This document shows, one piece after another, positions 4,165-32,712 of a stretch of 46,915 bases of DNA. The translations under genes were made by a program, and so were the position numbers. The notes beneath the pieces are model-generated. The model had not been told where the DNA came from and did no database searches. It was given only the letters and a program-made list of their open reading frames with translations. The stretch is from an uncultured Clostridia bacterium (GTDB lineage Bacteria; Bacillota; Clostridia; Christensenellales; UBA3700). Positions within the stretch are counted from its first letter, which is position 1. Every line of letters starts with the position of its first letter. The stretch spans positions 1 through 46,915 of the forward strand of contig CAMWQA010000004.1 of the NCBI GenBank assembly GCA_947176265.1. Direction: 5' to 3'.

Positions 4165-4206
4165 ATGCTTTCCTCGATAATTTGCGTAGAGGTTGGCATT
4201 GAGTAA
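4165..4206 (+). CDS. candidate 13-aa leader peptide MLSSIICVEVGIE
   Basis: AAGGAG SD 5 nt before ATG; stop TAA abuts the AAAGGAG RBS of the 4217 gene. Confidence 0.4.
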   Translation: MLSSIICVEVGIE

Positions 4207-4216
4207 AGGAGTAAAT

Positions 4217-7200
4217 ATGAGAAATAAAATCAACGTAATCGTCTGCATTATGATAATAGTGGTATGCGTGGCATTATTTGCAGCCGCATGTCAGCCTAAG
4301 GACGCAGACGGATTGATTAAACTTTCCAAGCCAGGCAATTTGGCGCTCAACGGAAGCGTGTTGAGTTGGGACGAAGTTAAGAATGCAGAGAAGTATTTTA
4401 TTTCCGTAGACGGAGTGGAGAATGAAAATAGCTTGACGTCCACGACTTGCGATTTGAGCGCAATGGTCACAGGCTACGGCAATTTCTCAATTACCGTAAG
4501 AGCTTACGGAGACGGAAAGAAATACGGTACGAGCGATAAGAGTTCCGCTATAGTTTACCACAAGGGTAACGCTCTTGACACTCCGGTAGTGACAGTCGTC
4601 AATAAGGTCGCATCTTGGAGCGCAATCGAGAACGCGGTAAATTATTCCGTCAAAGTCTTTGACTCAAAGGGTAAGGTCATGGACGAGTTGGAAAAAACCG
4701 AGGCATTGTCTTATAATTTCGCAGATAAAAAGACTTCTGCCAGCGGCGACGCAAGCGGAGATGCTCAAGAACAAAAAGATCTTTACGGAGCATACGGCGC
4801 GTATAGAATAAGCGTAACAGCTAATCCTTCCGCCGACAATATTCAATATTCGCCGTCTTTGGCAGGTACGGCAACTTACTATAACGCAACGGTCTTGGCA
4901 GTTCCGGCGTTTACCGATATGACGGGTTCTACTATTAGGTGGGGAGCAGTTGCCAACGCTACCAACTACACTTTGAGAAAGACGTATCAAGTTGACGGCA
5001 CTTACGAAGAAGCGGAAGTTTCTAGCACCAGCTATGCTTACCGCACCAAGTTCAATCTAGAAGAGGTCGGTAAATATACCTTTACTATCAAAGCCAACGG
5101 AGACAATCAAGTATATTATTCAAGCGAATTCAGCCAAGAAGACAGCGATTACACAGTCAATAAACTCGCTCCTCTAAAGGCTGAGGATATAGAACTTAAG
5201 TATGAAGGAGAAAGCGCAAAACTTTCATGGAAGTTGCCCGCCAATTCTCTTGAGACGGAGTTGTTTACTCTCAACTTGAGCGCGTTGTTGCCAGACGGAA
5301 GCGTCAAGTTGGAGAGCAGTATTTTGCAACAGACGATTTCCAATAAGATTAAATACGTAGTAGGCGACGTGTACGATTTCTATAAATACGACGCAGACGG
5401 CACAGGACTTGTAAAGGGAGAGTCGACTATTCTCGTATACAATTTCAACGGAAAGGCAAAAGTTCGTTACGACGGCAAAGATTATTTCCTCAAGGATAAA
5501 AAAGAAGACGGCAAAGACGTTGAATGGAAGGATTACGCGCCAAGCGCAAGCGTAGATATTATCTGCGACGATAGCAATCCCGATGAAATCAAGTTTGTCA
5601 ATGAGAGAAAAGAGTACAACGATCCTGCAAGCGGCGCGCTTTTGAGCCAAAACACCGGAAATAAAGAAGACGTGAACGGAACAGACGGACAGCAGCTCTT
5701 CTATTTTGAAGACGCTGACGGAGAGAGTAAATTCGACGTCGCTAAGAGCGTAGAAGAAATCGACGGAGTAACATATCATACTTTTGAAATTACTCTTGAC
5801 GATATATTTATCAAAAAGACAAATGAAGATGGCGATATTAAATACGAGTATAATATAACCGACAACGCATATTACGGATTGCTTTACGACGTATCTATTA
5901 CGGCAGGCAACGATTCAAAGAATTACGTCGCGAGCAAAAGCGTATCGACTGACGGTCAGTATATGAGTTATAAGATACCGGAAAAGAAGGACGGAAAGTT
6001 CGTCGTCAAAACTACCGGCGAGTATGCTTATTTGATATTGAATAGTTTCGTCAATCCCGGCAATACCGAAGAGTTCTCAATCGAAGAGAATATCAATTTC
6101 AACGGATATGAGATTGCGCAAGTCGAGACTTTCAACGGCAATATCAACGGTAACAATCATACCGTTTCGGGTGTCGTAATAGGCAACAAGGTCATGACGC
6201 AAAACGGCGTAATGAAGAATGACGGCGTAAGCGACCTTGAGTATTCTATGTTTGTCAATATCGACAGCAACGGAAATGAATTCAAGGGTATTATTCAGAA
6301 CGTCTTCTACGTGGGAATGAGCTTCGTCGGATACGACAAAGAAAAACTCGACGAGAGCGTAAGTTCAATCAAAGTTGCGCCTATCGCTATCAACAACAGA
6401 GGTACAATCCGCAATACGCTTGTTCAAAGCGATTCTATTAAGGCAGAGGGTGCTCAAGTTGCAGGTATGGTAATCAACAACTACGGATATATCAATACCT
6501 CTTCCGTATACGCAAACCTTGAGGGAACTACCGTGGGCGGCGTTATGGTAAATAACGAAGCCAACACGTACGTTGTCGACGTAGGTTTCTACGGCAAAGT
6601 TAAGTCGACGCTTTCGGATATTTTGACGGACGGCGTCACGACAATAAGCGGAGCAGGATTCGCAGTAAACAATAGCGGTAATATTATAGAAAGCTTTGCA
6701 ATAGGCGACGTTAGCGTTTCGGCAACCGGACTGGACAAAGTGTACGCAGGCGGTTTTGTGGCAATCAACAGCGGCAGCATAAATAAGTCGTACAGCGGAG
6801 AATTTACTCTCAACAACGTAATAACTACGGTTAGCGCTGACGGTGACAATGCGTACGCAGGCGGTTTCGTTGCAAGCAACAACGGCGAGATTAAATCAAG
6901 CTATTCTACGAATAAAGCTACGGCAAGTATGTACTCAGGCGGTTTCGCAGGATACAACGAGGCAAGCATTACGAGTTGTTACTCCACCGGCGGTACGGCG
7001 CGTACGGGCGAGAATAGAGGCGCGTTCGTAGGTAAGAATCAAGGCGGAACTATCGCAAAGAGCGTAAGCTATTCGACCGACAGCTGGGCTGAAGACAAAG
7101 AGGTAGAAGTATTGAAATCAAGCGAGAAACTTGCAGATATCGTAACGATACTTTACGGCGAAGACGAAGCTGATATGGTTATTATAAGAGACAAGGGTTA

Positions 7201-7441
7201 TCGTAACCCATTGATCAAAGGACTTATCTATATCGTAAGAGACGGCAACGAAATCAAGAATATCGTAACCATGCGTCCGTCGCAGAACGTAGATACTCAA
7301 GGCGTTATATTCATCTTAAATGAAGTCAAAGACGTAAAAGTTACTTTGCACGGTAATAATAGCAAGAAGGATAATAAAGTAGTAATCGAATTGAGTATTG
7401 ACAACGCTCCTGCAAGATATATTTACGGTTACGTAAAATAG
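4217..7441 (+). CDS. surface lipoprotein with Fn3-like domains and GLUG-type beta-helix repeats
   Basis: lipobox signal peptide (VCVALFAAAC); repeats AGGFVAINSGSINKSYS / AGGFVASNNGEIKSSYS / SGGFAGYNEASITSCYS. Confidence 0.85.
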   Translation: MRNKINVIVCIMIIVVCVALFAAACQPKDADGLIKLSKPGNLALNGSVLSWDEVKNAEKYFISVDGVENENSLTSTTCDLSAMVTGYGNFSITVRAYGDGKKYGTSDKSSAIVYHKGNALDTPVVTVVNKVASWSAIENAVNYSVKVFDSKGKVMDELEKTEALSYNFADKKTSASGDASGDAQEQKDLYGAYGAYRISVTANPSADNIQYSPSLAGTATYYNATVLAVPAFTDMTGSTIRWGAVANATNYTLRKTYQVDGTYEEAEVSSTSYAYRTKFNLEEVGKYTFTIKANGDNQVYYSSEFSQEDSDYTVNKLAPLKAEDIELKYEGESAKLSWKLPANSLETELFTLNLSALLPDGSVKLESSILQQTISNKIKYVVGDVYDFYKYDADGTGLVKGESTILVYNFNGKAKVRYDGKDYFLKDKKEDGKDVEWKDYAPSASVDIICDDSNPDEIKFVNERKEYNDPASGALLSQNTGNKEDVNGTDGQQLFYFEDADGESKFDVAKSVEEIDGVTYHTFEITLDDIFIKKTNEDGDIKYEYNITDNAYYGLLYDVSITAGNDSKNYVASKSVSTDGQYMSYKIPEKKDGKFVVKTTGEYAYLILNSFVNPGNTEEFSIEENINFNGYEIAQVETFNGNINGNNHTVSGVVIGNKVMTQNGVMKNDGVSDLEYSMFVNIDSNGNEFKGIIQNVFYVGMSFVGYDKEKLDESVSSIKVAPIAINNRGTIRNTLVQSDSIKAEGAQVAGMVINNYGYINTSSVYANLEGTTVGGVMVNNEANTYVVDVGFYGKVKSTLSDILTDGVTTISGAGFAVNNSGNIIESFAIGDVSVSATGLDKVYAGGFVAINSGSINKSYSGEFTLNNVITTVSADGDNAYAGGFVASNNGEIKSSYSTNKATASMYSGGFAGYNEASITSCYSTGGTARTGENRGAFVGKNQGGTIAKSVSYSTDSWAEDKEVEVLKSSEKLADIVTILYGEDEADMVIIRDKGYRNPLIKGLIYIVRDGNEIKNIVTMRPSQNVDTQGVIFILNEVKDVKVTLHGNNSKKDNKVVIELSIDNAPARYIYGYVK

Positions 7442-27191: not shown

Positions 27192-28433
27192 TTAGATTTC
27201 TTGTTTATTTGACGGAGAAGACGCGCAAAGCGGAAGTTCGACAATAAATTTTGTGTATTCTCCCACTTGACTTTCGCAAGTGATTTTGCCCTTGAGAGAA
27301 TCGACTATTGATTTTGCGATGCTCAGTCCCAGTCCAAAAGAATTGCCGGTGTCTTTATGCGAAGAATCCACCTTATAAAATCTATCGAATATATGGTCTA
27401 GCTTTTCTTGCGGAATGCCATCGCCGGTGTTTGTCATACTGATTATTGCGTGTCGTCTCGTCTTTTGCAACGTCAAAGTAATTTTACCGTTTTGCAAGGT
27501 ATACTTAATTGCATTGTCGAGCAGTATTCCAACGATTTTTTCAATTTCCGCCTTATTCGCCGCCACTTTGATATTGTCGTCGGCGGAATAATCGAGCTTA
27601 ATTGATTTCTCGTAACATATCGCCTCAAAAGACAACGTCATACCCTCGACTATATCGTTGATTTCAAGTTCTTCGCGCTCGGAGTTTATATTCTTTGACT
27701 CATACTTCGTCAGCTCCAGCATATCCAATATCAAAGATTGCATTCTGTCAAGCTGATAGCCTGCGGAGTCGAGCCACTTTCCATTGTCTGCGACTGTGGA
27801 ATTCTTGTCGCTTTGAATCAACTCCAGATTGGTTTTGACGACCGTCAGCGGAGTTTTAAGCTCGTGCGAAGCATTGGCGATAAGTTCTTGTTGGCGCAAG
27901 AAAGACTGCCTGACAGGCTCTATCGCGTGTTTTGCAAAGAAGTAGAAGAATAAGAAAATGGCAAGCATTCCCACTATGCAAATACAGGCAAGCGTGATGC
28001 TCATAATCTGAATATACTTGTACGAACTGGTGTAATCTATAACCGTATATTTAATTGCAGGTCGACCGCTTTCTTGGACGGAAGTAGCAATAAATTTATA
28101 TCGTCTTCCGCTTGCTGTTTTAAACTCGTCGTCTTGATTGCCTTTTGCCGTCACCGCTTTAACAACTGCTTGTATTTCGTCTTGAGAGAAATAGTCGGGG
28201 GAGTAATAAGTCGTGGGCTCGTGATTATCTATTTTGACGACGTATACGTAGTTGTTGCTTTGGAAGTAAGGACCTGCCGCGGCTCGCAATAAGTCGTTTT
28301 CTACTTCAGTCAACGTCTGAACTCTCGATACTAATAGCACGAGTAGACACGCAAGTATAACGAGCGCCCAGCCTATTGCCAACGGGACGTAAAAAAATTT
28401 TCGTTGAAGTTTTTTGAATACCTTCTCGTTCAT
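27192..28433 (-). CDS. sensor histidine kinase
   Basis: two TM regions; ELIANASHELKTPLTVVKTNLEL; DNAIKYT; FGLGLSIAKSIVD. Confidence 0.95.
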   Translation of the reverse strand: MNEKVFKKLQRKFFYVPLAIGWALVILACLLVLLVSRVQTLTEVENDLLRAAAGPYFQSNNYVYVVKIDNHEPTTYYSPDYFSQDEIQAVVKAVTAKGNQDDEFKTASGRRYKFIATSVQESGRPAIKYTVIDYTSSYKYIQIMSITLACICIVGMLAIFLFFYFFAKHAIEPVRQSFLRQQELIANASHELKTPLTVVKTNLELIQSDKNSTVADNGKWLDSAGYQLDRMQSLILDMLELTKYESKNINSEREELEINDIVEGMTLSFEAICYEKSIKLDYSADDNIKVAANKAEIEKIVGILLDNAIKYTLQNGKITLTLQKTRRHAIISMTNTGDGIPQEKLDHIFDRFYKVDSSHKDTGNSFGLGLSIAKSIVDSLKGKITCESQVGEYTKFIVELPLCASSPSNKQEI

Positions 28434-29116
28434 TAATTCTTTGCAGCGAGTTGATAGCCGACTCCTCTAATAGAATTGATAGTAAAATCGGCGTCGACGA
28501 AATTCAACTTTTTTCTTAAAAATGATATAAAGACTTCCAAAGAGTTGGATTCAAAGTCGTTGTCAAATCCCCAAACTTTGTTGATGAGCGGTTCTTTTTC
28601 TGCCACGTGACGCGGTCTTTCAAAGAAATAACGCATAATATCAAATTCTTTTTGAGAAAGTTTTACGCTCTTGTTTTGACTCTTGTTGATAAGTTGAAGG
28701 GTGGAGAGATTGAGAGATACGTTGCCAAAAGAGATGAGATTGTCGGGCGTAGCGTCCGTCTTTCTTCTCAAAAGCGCTCTTATGCGGGCAAGCAATTCTG
28801 CGGTGGAGAATGGCTTAGGCAAATAGTCGTCTGCGCCCAAGTCAAGCCCTTTGACTTTGTTGTATTCTTGCGACAGCGCAGTCAGCATAATGACCGGCGT
28901 GGTAATTCTTTTGCCTCTTATCTCGCTCAATACCTCAAAGCCGTTCTTCTTTGGCATCATCACGTCGAGTATAATCAAATCGAAAATATCAGATACTGCG
29001 AGTTGCAATCCCGCTTCGCCGTCGTTAGCGACCTGCACTTCATATTTTTCTTTTTGCAAAACGGTACTCAACGCTTCGCAAAGGCTCATAGAATCTTCTA
29101 CCAACAATATTCGCAT
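28433..29116 (-). CDS. OmpR/PhoB-family response regulator
   Basis: MRILLVEDSMSL, LIILDVMMPKKNGFEVL, GADDYLPKPFSTAELLAR, winged-helix C-terminus; ATGA overlap with the kinase. Confidence 0.96.
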   Translation of the reverse strand: MRILLVEDSMSLCEALSTVLQKEKYEVQVANDGEAGLQLAVSDIFDLIILDVMMPKKNGFEVLSEIRGKRITTPVIMLTALSQEYNKVKGLDLGADDYLPKPFSTAELLARIRALLRRKTDATPDNLISFGNVSLNLSTLQLINKSQNKSVKLSQKEFDIMRYFFERPRHVAEKEPLINKVWGFDNDFESNSLEVFISFLRKKLNFVDADFTINSIRGVGYQLAAKN

Positions 29117-29225: not shown

Positions 29226-29268
29226 AAATGCGCCCCATATCGTTGAGTCCAACTTTTTGGGGCGTATA
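29226..29268 (-). terminator. intrinsic terminator (minus strand) ATACGCCCCA...TGGGGCGCATTTTTTA
   Basis: inverted repeat with T-run on the minus strand, downstream of the 29299 gene. Confidence 0.75.
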
Positions 29269-29298: not shown

Positions 29299-32200
29299 TT
29301 AAGCCGCGTATTTTGTGTCGATACCGGAAGTAAATCCGTACTTGTTGAGGCTAGTTCCGCTATTTACGTATTCTGACGGAGTTTGAGGCAAAGTTGCTAC
29401 GCACTCTTGGGCGTCGGAATCTGTGTAGTATCCGTGTCCTATCGCGGTAATTACAACCACGTAACCGTTGCTTGCCGCAACGTCGCTGTCGTATTCGACG
29501 ATGCCTGTCAAATCTGCAAAGTTGATGCTGTATCCGATTCTTCCGTCCTTGAGGATAGAAGTTCTGCCGATTTCAATCTTCTCGCCGCCGTTGATTTGAA
29601 GCTCGACGAGATACTCGTATCCGTTCTGCACGCCTTGCCAGCTTGCGTGGATGACCGCATTGTCGTCTTCGTTGATGGTTGCGGTAATAGTAGTCTCGTC
29701 TACTGCGTTGAGTTTCTCCGTAGTGGAATGCGCGATCATGGAGTCAGGCGAGTCTTTGATATTAGGATTGTTAGTGTTGACAGCCTTTACTCTTATAGAG
29801 TGGTCGCCGACTTTGTTGACGTATTGCGTAATATCAACGCTGAGGTTGGTGCCGTTTTCAGAGAAAGCGGGGTTCTTGATCTCTTTGCCGTCAACGTAGA
29901 TTTTGTAGTTCGTTGCGTCCGGCACTTTGTCAAACTCAAAGGAAGCCTTGGTTGTTTCGTCTTCAGTAATCGTGTTTACCTTTAATCCCGTAGGCATATT
30001 CAACGTAATGATATAGTTGTAATTTACGGATACCGAAGCGCCGTCAACGTACAACGTTGAAGAACCTATTTTCTCAAAATCGAGAGTATCGTCGTAGTTG
30101 CCTTGCGGAGTAACGGTTATCGTATAGCTTCTGCCCGGGGTAGATACGTATTGCGTAATATCAAATTCGGGATCGTCAGTGCTGTTCTTTTCCCAAATTA
30201 ATGGCTCTTCAACTCCGCTTATATCAAACTTATAAGATTTTGCGTATTTGACTTTTGCCACTTTGCAATATATTCTGTTTGATCTCTCTTCAATAATGAT
30301 GTCAATAGGCTTAGCCAACTCTTCAACGTAGATGACGTTGTCGCAACCCGACATATTATGTGTTGAGTTAAGGTCTCTGAATATAATCAAATTCTTGACG
30401 TCTTGATAAGTGGGGCAGGAGTGTCCGGCTTTCATTATGACTTGCTTACCGCCGTTGATCGTGTTGGAAATGTTACCTTCAACGATAGCGGTCGAGTTGG
30501 AGTCGAGGTTCAAAGTCGCAACCGTGCTTTTGCTCTTAACCGTCGCATCGCTGCTCAACAATTCAAGAGTATTTGCAATCTTAACGCCGCTTTGAACTAC
30601 TACTTGAGGACAATTAACTATACTTATTTTGCTCGTAGACTTTGCGTTGACGATATTGCCGGCAAAGGTTACTTTTTCAGCCGTTATTTCAGCGTTGACC
30701 TCGTTGGTGTTTCCGCCTCCGTAGTTATACAGTGTCAACGTTTTTGCCGTTGCCGTCAAGTTTTCGCAAGATACGTTTGCCATAAGCACGACGTTCATAT
30801 TAGGAGCGTTTATTTCAAGAGTTCCTGCCTTGAGGTTGGATTTTTTGTTGGTAACGTAGCTCTTGCCCTTTCTCGTACCGATATACAAAGTACCTGATTT
30901 GTCGGTAGTGATCTCAAGTTTGTCAGACACGCTCAAAGTATGCTTATTGAGGTCAATGCTGTGCAAGTTGCTATCGTTGAAAGTCAAGGTGTTGCAAGAT
31001 ATGTTCTTGTCAAGCACGAAGAAGTACTTTCCAAAATCATTTTTCTTCAAATTTGCCGCATTAAATCCGTCTGCGTTCTTGACGAAAATTCTTGGAGCGT
31101 GGAAGAATACTACCGGCAATATTATCGAAAGAAGTATTGCCACGACGGCTACGCTTGCGACAATTGCTATGATGCCTTTTTTGCCGAGTTTCTTCTTTGG
31201 AGAGGTAGGTTTGTCTTGCTTATCCTTGTCTTTTTTCTTATCGTCTTGGGTCTTATCTTCAACCTTGTCGTCAGAAGTTTTATCGTCTTCGCTCTTTTTG
31301 TCTTCTTGGGTATCTTGTTGAGGATTAGCGGCAGTAGCCATATCTCCGTGCAAGAATTCATCCATAAGGTCTTCGCCGGTGGAGAAGACGAGTCCGCTTG
31401 CCTGACCGTTCTCTTCGCTATACGGCTTTCCGTCAGCAGGTTCATCTTTTACGCCCGCTTTGTGCGAATAGATTATAAACGGCACAGGATCGCTCGTGTG
31501 AGTTTTAAGCGAAAGCGGAGTGGGGTGGTCGGGAGCAATGAGAATCTTATAGTCATCGTTCATTTTGTCAAGTTGCTCTTTGACGTACTTGACTACGATA
31601 GAGTCGATGAGTTCGATCGACTTGATTTTGTTGTCGGCGTCGCCTTGGTGTCCGCATTCGTCGGGAGCTTCCATGTGAATATATACGTAATCGTATCCTT
31701 CTTTCAAAGCGTCGATACAAGCTTTTGCTTTGCCTTGGAAGTTGGTCTTATAAGTACCCGTTGCGCCTTCTACGTTGATGACTTTCATCTTTGCGCCCGT
31801 GCCGATACCTTTTATCAAATCGACTGCAGAGATAACTGCGCCTTTTATGCCGTATTTTTCCTCAAACGGCGTAAGTTCGGGACGTGTGCCTTCTCCCCAA
31901 AGCCAAATGCTGTTGGCGGGTTTGAGTCCGTTTTCGATACGCTTTTTATTGACGGGGTGGTCTTTAAGCAATTTGTAAGAATCAATCATGATATCCAAGA
32001 AAATATCTCCGTATTCTCCCTTGGGAAGATATTCGGTAATTTTCTTATCGGAAATATCATGCGGAGGAGTAAAGTCAGTGCCTTTCTCTGCGTTGTGCGC
32101 AACAAGACAATGACGGTAACTTACGCCTGCGTGAAAATCAATGTATTCGTCTCCGAGATTTTGTTGGAGATACTCGATAAGCTCTTTTGCCTCTTCGGTA

Positions 32201-32571
32201 GAAATTTCGCCAGCAGAGTAGTCAAGCATAGTTTTGTCAGCATAATTCTCTTCGTCTGACAGCGTAACGAGATTGCATCTGATAGCTAAGTCAGTGTCCT
32301 TGAGGTCAATGCCGATAGAAAGAGCCTCGAGAGGAGAACGTCCCGTATAATACTTGTCGGGAGCGTAACCCATCATAGAGAGATTTGCCACGTCGCTACC
32401 GGGTTTCATACCGTCGGGAACAGTCTTGACAAGTCCCAATTTACCTTTCTTGCACAAGTCGTCTATATTAGGCTTGTTTGCTACTTCAAGAGGAGTGCGT
32501 CCCCCTAAAGCCTTTGATGGGTAATCGGCCATGCCGTCGCCCAAAATCACCACATACTTCATATATTTCAC
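29299..32571 (-). CDS. fusion protein: cofactor-independent phosphoglycerate mutase (ApgM-type) + acidic/Lys linker + TM + Fn3-like extracellular region
   Basis: N-terminus MKYVVILGDGMADYPSKALGGRTPLEVANKPNID...HMEAPDECGHQGD...LIAPDHPTP; TM GIIAIVASVAVVAILLSIILPVVFF; C-terminal beta-rich repeats. Confidence 0.88.
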   Translation of the reverse strand: MKYMKYVVILGDGMADYPSKALGGRTPLEVANKPNIDDLCKKGKLGLVKTVPDGMKPGSDVANLSMMGYAPDKYYTGRSPLEALSIGIDLKDTDLAIRCNLVTLSDEENYADKTMLDYSAGEISTEEAKELIEYLQQNLGDEYIDFHAGVSYRHCLVAHNAEKGTDFTPPHDISDKKITEYLPKGEYGDIFLDIMIDSYKLLKDHPVNKKRIENGLKPANSIWLWGEGTRPELTPFEEKYGIKGAVISAVDLIKGIGTGAKMKVINVEGATGTYKTNFQGKAKACIDALKEGYDYVYIHMEAPDECGHQGDADNKIKSIELIDSIVVKYVKEQLDKMNDDYKILIAPDHPTPLSLKTHTSDPVPFIIYSHKAGVKDEPADGKPYSEENGQASGLVFSTGEDLMDEFLHGDMATAANPQQDTQEDKKSEDDKTSDDKVEDKTQDDKKKDKDKQDKPTSPKKKLGKKGIIAIVASVAVVAILLSIILPVVFFHAPRIFVKNADGFNAANLKKNDFGKYFFVLDKNISCNTLTFNDSNLHSIDLNKHTLSVSDKLEITTDKSGTLYIGTRKGKSYVTNKKSNLKAGTLEINAPNMNVVLMANVSCENLTATAKTLTLYNYGGGNTNEVNAEITAEKVTFAGNIVNAKSTSKISIVNCPQVVVQSGVKIANTLELLSSDATVKSKSTVATLNLDSNSTAIVEGNISNTINGGKQVIMKAGHSCPTYQDVKNLIIFRDLNSTHNMSGCDNVIYVEELAKPIDIIIEERSNRIYCKVAKVKYAKSYKFDISGVEEPLIWEKNSTDDPEFDITQYVSTPGRSYTITVTPQGNYDDTLDFEKIGSSTLYVDGASVSVNYNYIITLNMPTGLKVNTITEDETTKASFEFDKVPDATNYKIYVDGKEIKNPAFSENGTNLSVDITQYVNKVGDHSIRVKAVNTNNPNIKDSPDSMIAHSTTEKLNAVDETTITATINEDDNAVIHASWQGVQNGYEYLVELQINGGEKIEIGRTSILKDGRIGYSINFADLTGIVEYDSDVAASNGYVVVITAIGHGYYTDSDAQECVATLPQTPSEYVNSGTSLNKYGFTSGIDTKYAA

Positions 32572-32712
32572 CTACAAAATAAGAATATTCTTATACATAG
32601 TTTATTATATATTATATGTTGGACAAATGTCAAATGTTTTATGACTATGTTTAAGACAACTAACGAGTGCGTATGTTAGCCGTCTTTTTGCTCAATTGAC
32701 GCAAGATTTAAT

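Follow-up and report, generated by a model that had tools for sequence, protein, structure and literature searches.

Introduction

RsgI anti-sigma factors and PASTA kinases are bacterial proteins of single-pass design, with the N-terminus inside the cell and the C-terminus outside. Among enzymes of the ApgM fold, the closest described relatives of the protein considered here are the archaeal phosphoglycerate mutases and ThrB2, represented by BT2402 of Bacteroides thetaiotaomicron. ThrB and ThrB2 show complementary occurrence in gut genomes, and ThrB2 genes commonly, though not universally, lie next to other threonine genes, as in about half of Firmicutes cases (PMC9026213). BT2402 mutants require threonine; an E. 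coli thrB mutant is not rescued by BT2402, and the activity of the ThrB2 family is unproven (PMC7311316).

Here we analyze the window, a 46,915-nucleotide stretch from an uncultured Clostridia bacterium. Its preliminary description, made from the sequence alone, reported a glycolytic enzyme fused to a transmembrane anchor and an Fn3-like exterior and knew of no described protein of this design. Our literature searches likewise turned up no case in which a soluble biosynthetic enzyme is joined in this way to a surface protein with a membrane anchor.

Results

The window carries a gene in which an enzyme is continued into the surface protein that related genomes encode next door, and this fusion is conserved within a clade and recurs elsewhere. 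All parts of the gene and its flanking signals lie on the minus strand. The frame from 32571 to 29299 is open over 1090 codons and forms an intact single ORF, in agreement with the single uninterrupted polypeptide first described. The whole gene occupies 29299..32562 (ATG at 32562, stop TAA at 29299-29301), and the ATG product is 1087 aa. The ATG at 32562 is a likelier start than 32571, given a Shine-Dalgarno-like AGGTG 6 bases upstream (32569..32573, read from the sequence); the GTG start assigned earlier falls within this motif. At 29231..29264 we read by eye a terminator-like stem of 7 bp, CGCCCCA/TGGGGCG, with C-A-T6 after it. Around the fused gene, the window encodes a two-component pair, an XRE-type regulator and purF. 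The pair, composed of a histidine kinase and an OmpR-type response regulator (27192-29116, minus strand), lies downstream in the same orientation. The ThrB2-exterior locus has the same pair in G001, G006, G007 and G009 and also, though rearranged or with inserts, in G002, G008, G011 and G015.

The protein begins with a ThrB2/ApgM-like enzyme domain (31351..32562; residues 1-404), identified by profile, PDB and fold matches. It is followed by a charged, disordered linker of ~59 aa with 16 D/E and 16 K/R (31174..31350), once the N-terminus of the surface protein, in which AlphaFold predicts about residues 409-464 to be disordered. This linker varies both in length (45-109 aa) and in sequence. 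A single transmembrane (TM) helix (31102..31182) spans residues 461-487 in the AlphaFold model, with KKKLGKKG just before it, so that the acidic/Lys linker and the one helix originally placed at about residues 465-490 are both borne out. The protein has one hydrophobic helix, positive charges on its cytosolic side and no N-terminal signal peptide, as expected of a single-pass N-in/C-out protein; no second hydrophobic stretch was found in close relatives. We infer that the enzyme and the KKKLGKKG cluster face the cytosol and that the C-terminal part lies outside, which supports the proposal of a cytosolic enzyme tethered to the membrane.

Downstream of the TM helix, AlphaFold predicts ~600 exterior residues to be all-beta. 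The mean pLDDT is 85.6 for the exterior alone and 78.5 for the whole protein, and the enzyme domain is well predicted. From the strand pattern in model m1f170605c92e (pLDDT mostly 75-96), the first part of the exterior (30310..31092; about residues 491-751) is a putative beta-solenoid, for which a structure search found no specific PDB match. Three Fn3-like domains follow (29395..30309; about residues 752-1056, boundaries set by eye), and the last third of the protein resembles Fn3 arrays in the PDB (Foldseek, E about 1e-6). These domains are Fn3-like by fold only, as no Pfam Fn3 match over the gathering score was found in the protein; the exterior as a whole gave no Pfam or PDB sequence match better than E 0.02. 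The Fn3-like part matches the surface lipoprotein encoded at 4193-7441 of the window (profile match at 4316-4822, E 1.3e-14), while the solenoid part has no profile match there. The preliminary description had an Fn3-like exterior with repeats like those of this lipoprotein, which it placed at 4217; this holds for the three Fn3-like domains but leaves out the solenoid, which precedes them and does not share the similarity. In G006, G007, G008 and G015, the contig with the ThrB2/exterior pair also carries stretches homologous to the lipoprotein.

Split relatives, in which a stop at the linker separates two genes, had been named in advance as a sign against the fusion. They do exist, and the two genes part at exactly the point that would be expected if an assembly or frameshift error had joined them in the window. 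However, the same fused ORF is present in seven other MAGs of the genus (G001, G003, G004, G009, G010, G013 and G014), at 70-77% identity over the protein and 59-71% in the exterior, and these form a well-supported clade with the window's protein on the tree. Its presence in all of these MAGs rules out both chance and mis-assembly. Coding selection also runs through both halves, dN/dS in the fused clade being 0.03-0.08 for the enzyme and 0.07-0.16 for the exterior, with synonymous sites saturated in some pairs; both values indicate purifying selection. We therefore reject an artefact, whose probability we regard as negligible. The split relatives show the origin of the fusion rather than its refutation.

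The remaining nine genomes of the genus (G002, G005-G008, G011, G012, G015 and G016) and most of the family encode the two halves as neighboring genes on the same strand, and dN/dS in split relatives is near the fused values (0.02-0.04 for the enzyme, about 0.07-0.12 for the exterior). Within the genus, the enzyme gene of split genomes closes with ...F-L-K-E-stop, and its final codons, AAGGAG, are the Shine-Dalgarno sequence of the next gene, whose ATG lies 4 bases after the enzyme's stop in another frame. Where these genomes have AAGGAG-stop-4 bases-ATGG, the window carries the scar CACGGAGATATGGC (31330..31350), a remnant of the neighbor's GGAG and ATG that is read through as H-G-D-M. Aligned by eye with the split form, the window junction CACGGAGATATGG shows a net loss of four bases, by which the stop disappears and the two frames become one. 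As read from these aligned junctions, the fusion arose when two genes lying side by side with little space between them lost the stop codon that separated them and came into a single frame.

Only the window still has the old ATG; at this position the seven other fused members of the genus read ATT, AAT, ATA, ATC or GAA. Since the window's linker contains no start codon led by a Shine-Dalgarno sequence, and the seven others no longer have the old ATG, one long product is expected, and a separate second product by internal initiation is rejected for the window. In G020 an internal start is possible, with AAGGA 7 bases before an in-frame ATG.

A maximum-likelihood tree of 55 enzyme domains has the split arrangement as the common state and requires four changes for the fused state, across two families. 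Fused clades comprise eight genomes of g1 (100/100), both genomes of g2 (100/99) and, from a different family, ten g45 genomes (100/99); G020 is fused and its sister G025 is not. One g45 genome, G236, has a frame break in the linker, between ThrB2 and the exterior (L098, G236:C17), and was counted as fused. The tree alone cannot separate gain from loss, but gains are favored by the remnant Shine-Dalgarno sequence that the fused clade retains and by the scatter of fused tips, and the four changes are apparently separate fusions. Two further candidates were discarded: a g45 ORF whose length had suggested a ThrB2-ThrC fusion turned out to have the ThrB2-TM-exterior design as well, and the 769-aa ORF of G309 is merely an upstream extension of an unfused ThrB2.

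The preliminary description took the enzyme (about residues 1-408) for a complete ApgM-type glycolytic phosphoglycerate mutase. The ApgM fold is upheld for residues 1-404, which match PF10143 (215 bits) and PF01676 (156 bits) and, among known structures, 2zkt (E 7.6e-80; TM 0.84 by target for 2zkt_B), with Foldseek matches to 2zkt, 3idd and 3kd8. The glycolytic role is not. The gene is not the genome's only candidate for this activity: a full GpmI (670 bits, G000:C21:3253-4767) lies in a pgk-tpiA-gpmI cluster, and we reject a glycolytic role on this ground. GpmI was present in 35/35 genomes searched, over the cut-off in 34.

The enzyme domain instead belongs to the TIGR02535 ('proposed homoserine kinase') kind, passing the curated cut-off of 446.3 bits with 537 bits (540 in the genome search). 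It also passes TIGR00306 (540 bits) and PRK04200 (547 bits). Its own genome holds hom and thrC and no ThrB over the cut-off; this MAG is 93% complete, and more complete relatives show the same pattern. Among 297 genomes of the order, 133 carry a ThrB2-like gene (290 bits or more, hand-sorted), 41 carry ThrB (over the cut-off) and 3 carry both, a mutual exclusion with a Fisher p of 3.8e-8, uncorrected for relatedness. The two are swapped even inside one family, where g45 has ThrB2 and G049 and G172 of g21 have ThrB. In G049, of a genus without ThrB2, L078 (G049:C7) encodes a ThrC-ThrB fusion of ~780 aa adjoining apparent hom and asd genes. G115, G132 and G147, also of g21, have no ThrB over the cut-off and no strong ThrB2 match, and keep the exterior gene. 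In the window's genome the ThrB2 gene adjoins neither thrC nor hom; in G025 it lies near metH/metF. From profile scores and gene distribution, we conclude that the fused enzyme is probably ThrB2, a stand-in homoserine kinase of threonine synthesis. The mutual exclusion of ThrB2 and ThrB is in line with PMC9026213 and PMC7311316.

The same domain might nevertheless serve glycolysis or gluconeogenesis alongside GpmI, as a second phosphoglycerate mutase held at the membrane. It has the ApgM fold and conserved metal and catalytic residues (D9, S56, D301, E302, H305, D345, H346 and H355 are invariant in A3), and two of the profiles that it passes, PRK04200 and TIGR00306, carry phosphoglycerate mutase names. 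Against this, GpmI is universal in the genomes searched and sits in the glycolytic cluster, and the distribution of the enzyme tracks the absence of ThrB. The fused enzyme also fails the archaeal phosphoglycerate mutase equivalog PRK04024 (322 bits, cut-off 489) as well as PRK04135, and has K38 at the position of the mutase calcium ligand E41, where BT2402 has R38 (PMC9765024). We consider a second mutase decidedly unlikely, and take the ThrB2 assignment forward.

No full-length exterior was found outside the order in 392 genomes drawn from the class; within the searches made, the full-length exterior is a family confined to the order. By our own count, 38 genomes hold both genes, which are fused or sit side by side on one strand in 35 of them; in G121 the two are unlinked, and in G057 they are divergent. 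The exterior gene is retained in five g21 genomes that lack ThrB2, so the exterior has a function of its own. By product names read from sequence, the gene there adjoins metH/metF or a dus-type cluster.

Such linkage could mean that the protein is a transmembrane sensor, whose exterior binds an outside ligand such as cell wall, mucin or polysaccharide and whose enzyme responds in activity or place, much as in RsgI anti-sigma factors or PASTA kinases. An N-in enzyme joined through one TM helix to C-out domains of binding type would suit that role, as would the adjacent or fused state of most pairs and the four separate fusions. However, a disordered linker of such variable length and sequence is a poor conductor of signals, the pair can be parted, as in G121 and G057, and the surface gene persists in genomes that lack ThrB2, which speaks against control of the enzyme by the exterior. 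We judge a sensor unlikely. It also seems improbable that exterior and enzyme form a working unit, with threonine synthesis placed at or governed from the surface and repeated fusion reflecting selection for such coupling.

Discussion

The explanation that we favor, and hold to be probable, is that a ThrB2-type enzyme has been fused at its C-terminus to the surface protein of its operon neighbor and acts on the cytosolic side of the membrane. In the cytosol, the enzyme domain would make O-phosphohomoserine while anchored to the inner face of the membrane, and the flexible linker would leave it free to work. The exterior may retain its own job outside the cell, in binding or structure. Most likely, the tether is no signaling device but a side effect of fixed co-expression, tolerated by both halves.

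Two features give the locus wider interest. Its apparent four-fold origin from the same gene pair offers a natural experiment on how a stop codon between tightly spaced genes disappears and does not return. In addition, the ThrB2/ThrB exclusion adds a genome set that bears on whether TIGR02535 enzymes phosphorylate homoserine.

Compared with known systems, the fused enzyme is closest to ThrB2 as represented by BT2402 (TIGR02535): the match is full-length and over the cut-off, and the gene is present where ThrB is missing. Described ThrB2 members are free enzymes, often encoded in thr operons (PMC9026213), whereas the fused protein has a membrane anchor and surface domains and is encoded away from thrC and hom. 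With the archaeal ApgM phosphoglycerate mutases (2zkt, 3kd8 and 3idd) it has the fold and metal-site residues in common, but identity is about 25-30%, the archaeal equivalog cut-offs are failed and GpmI fills the glycolytic role. In overall architecture it is like RsgI and the PASTA kinases, with a cytosolic working domain, one TM helix and exterior beta domains. In those proteins, however, the cytosolic part is a regulator whose coupling has been studied, whereas here it is a metabolic enzyme set behind a disordered linker.
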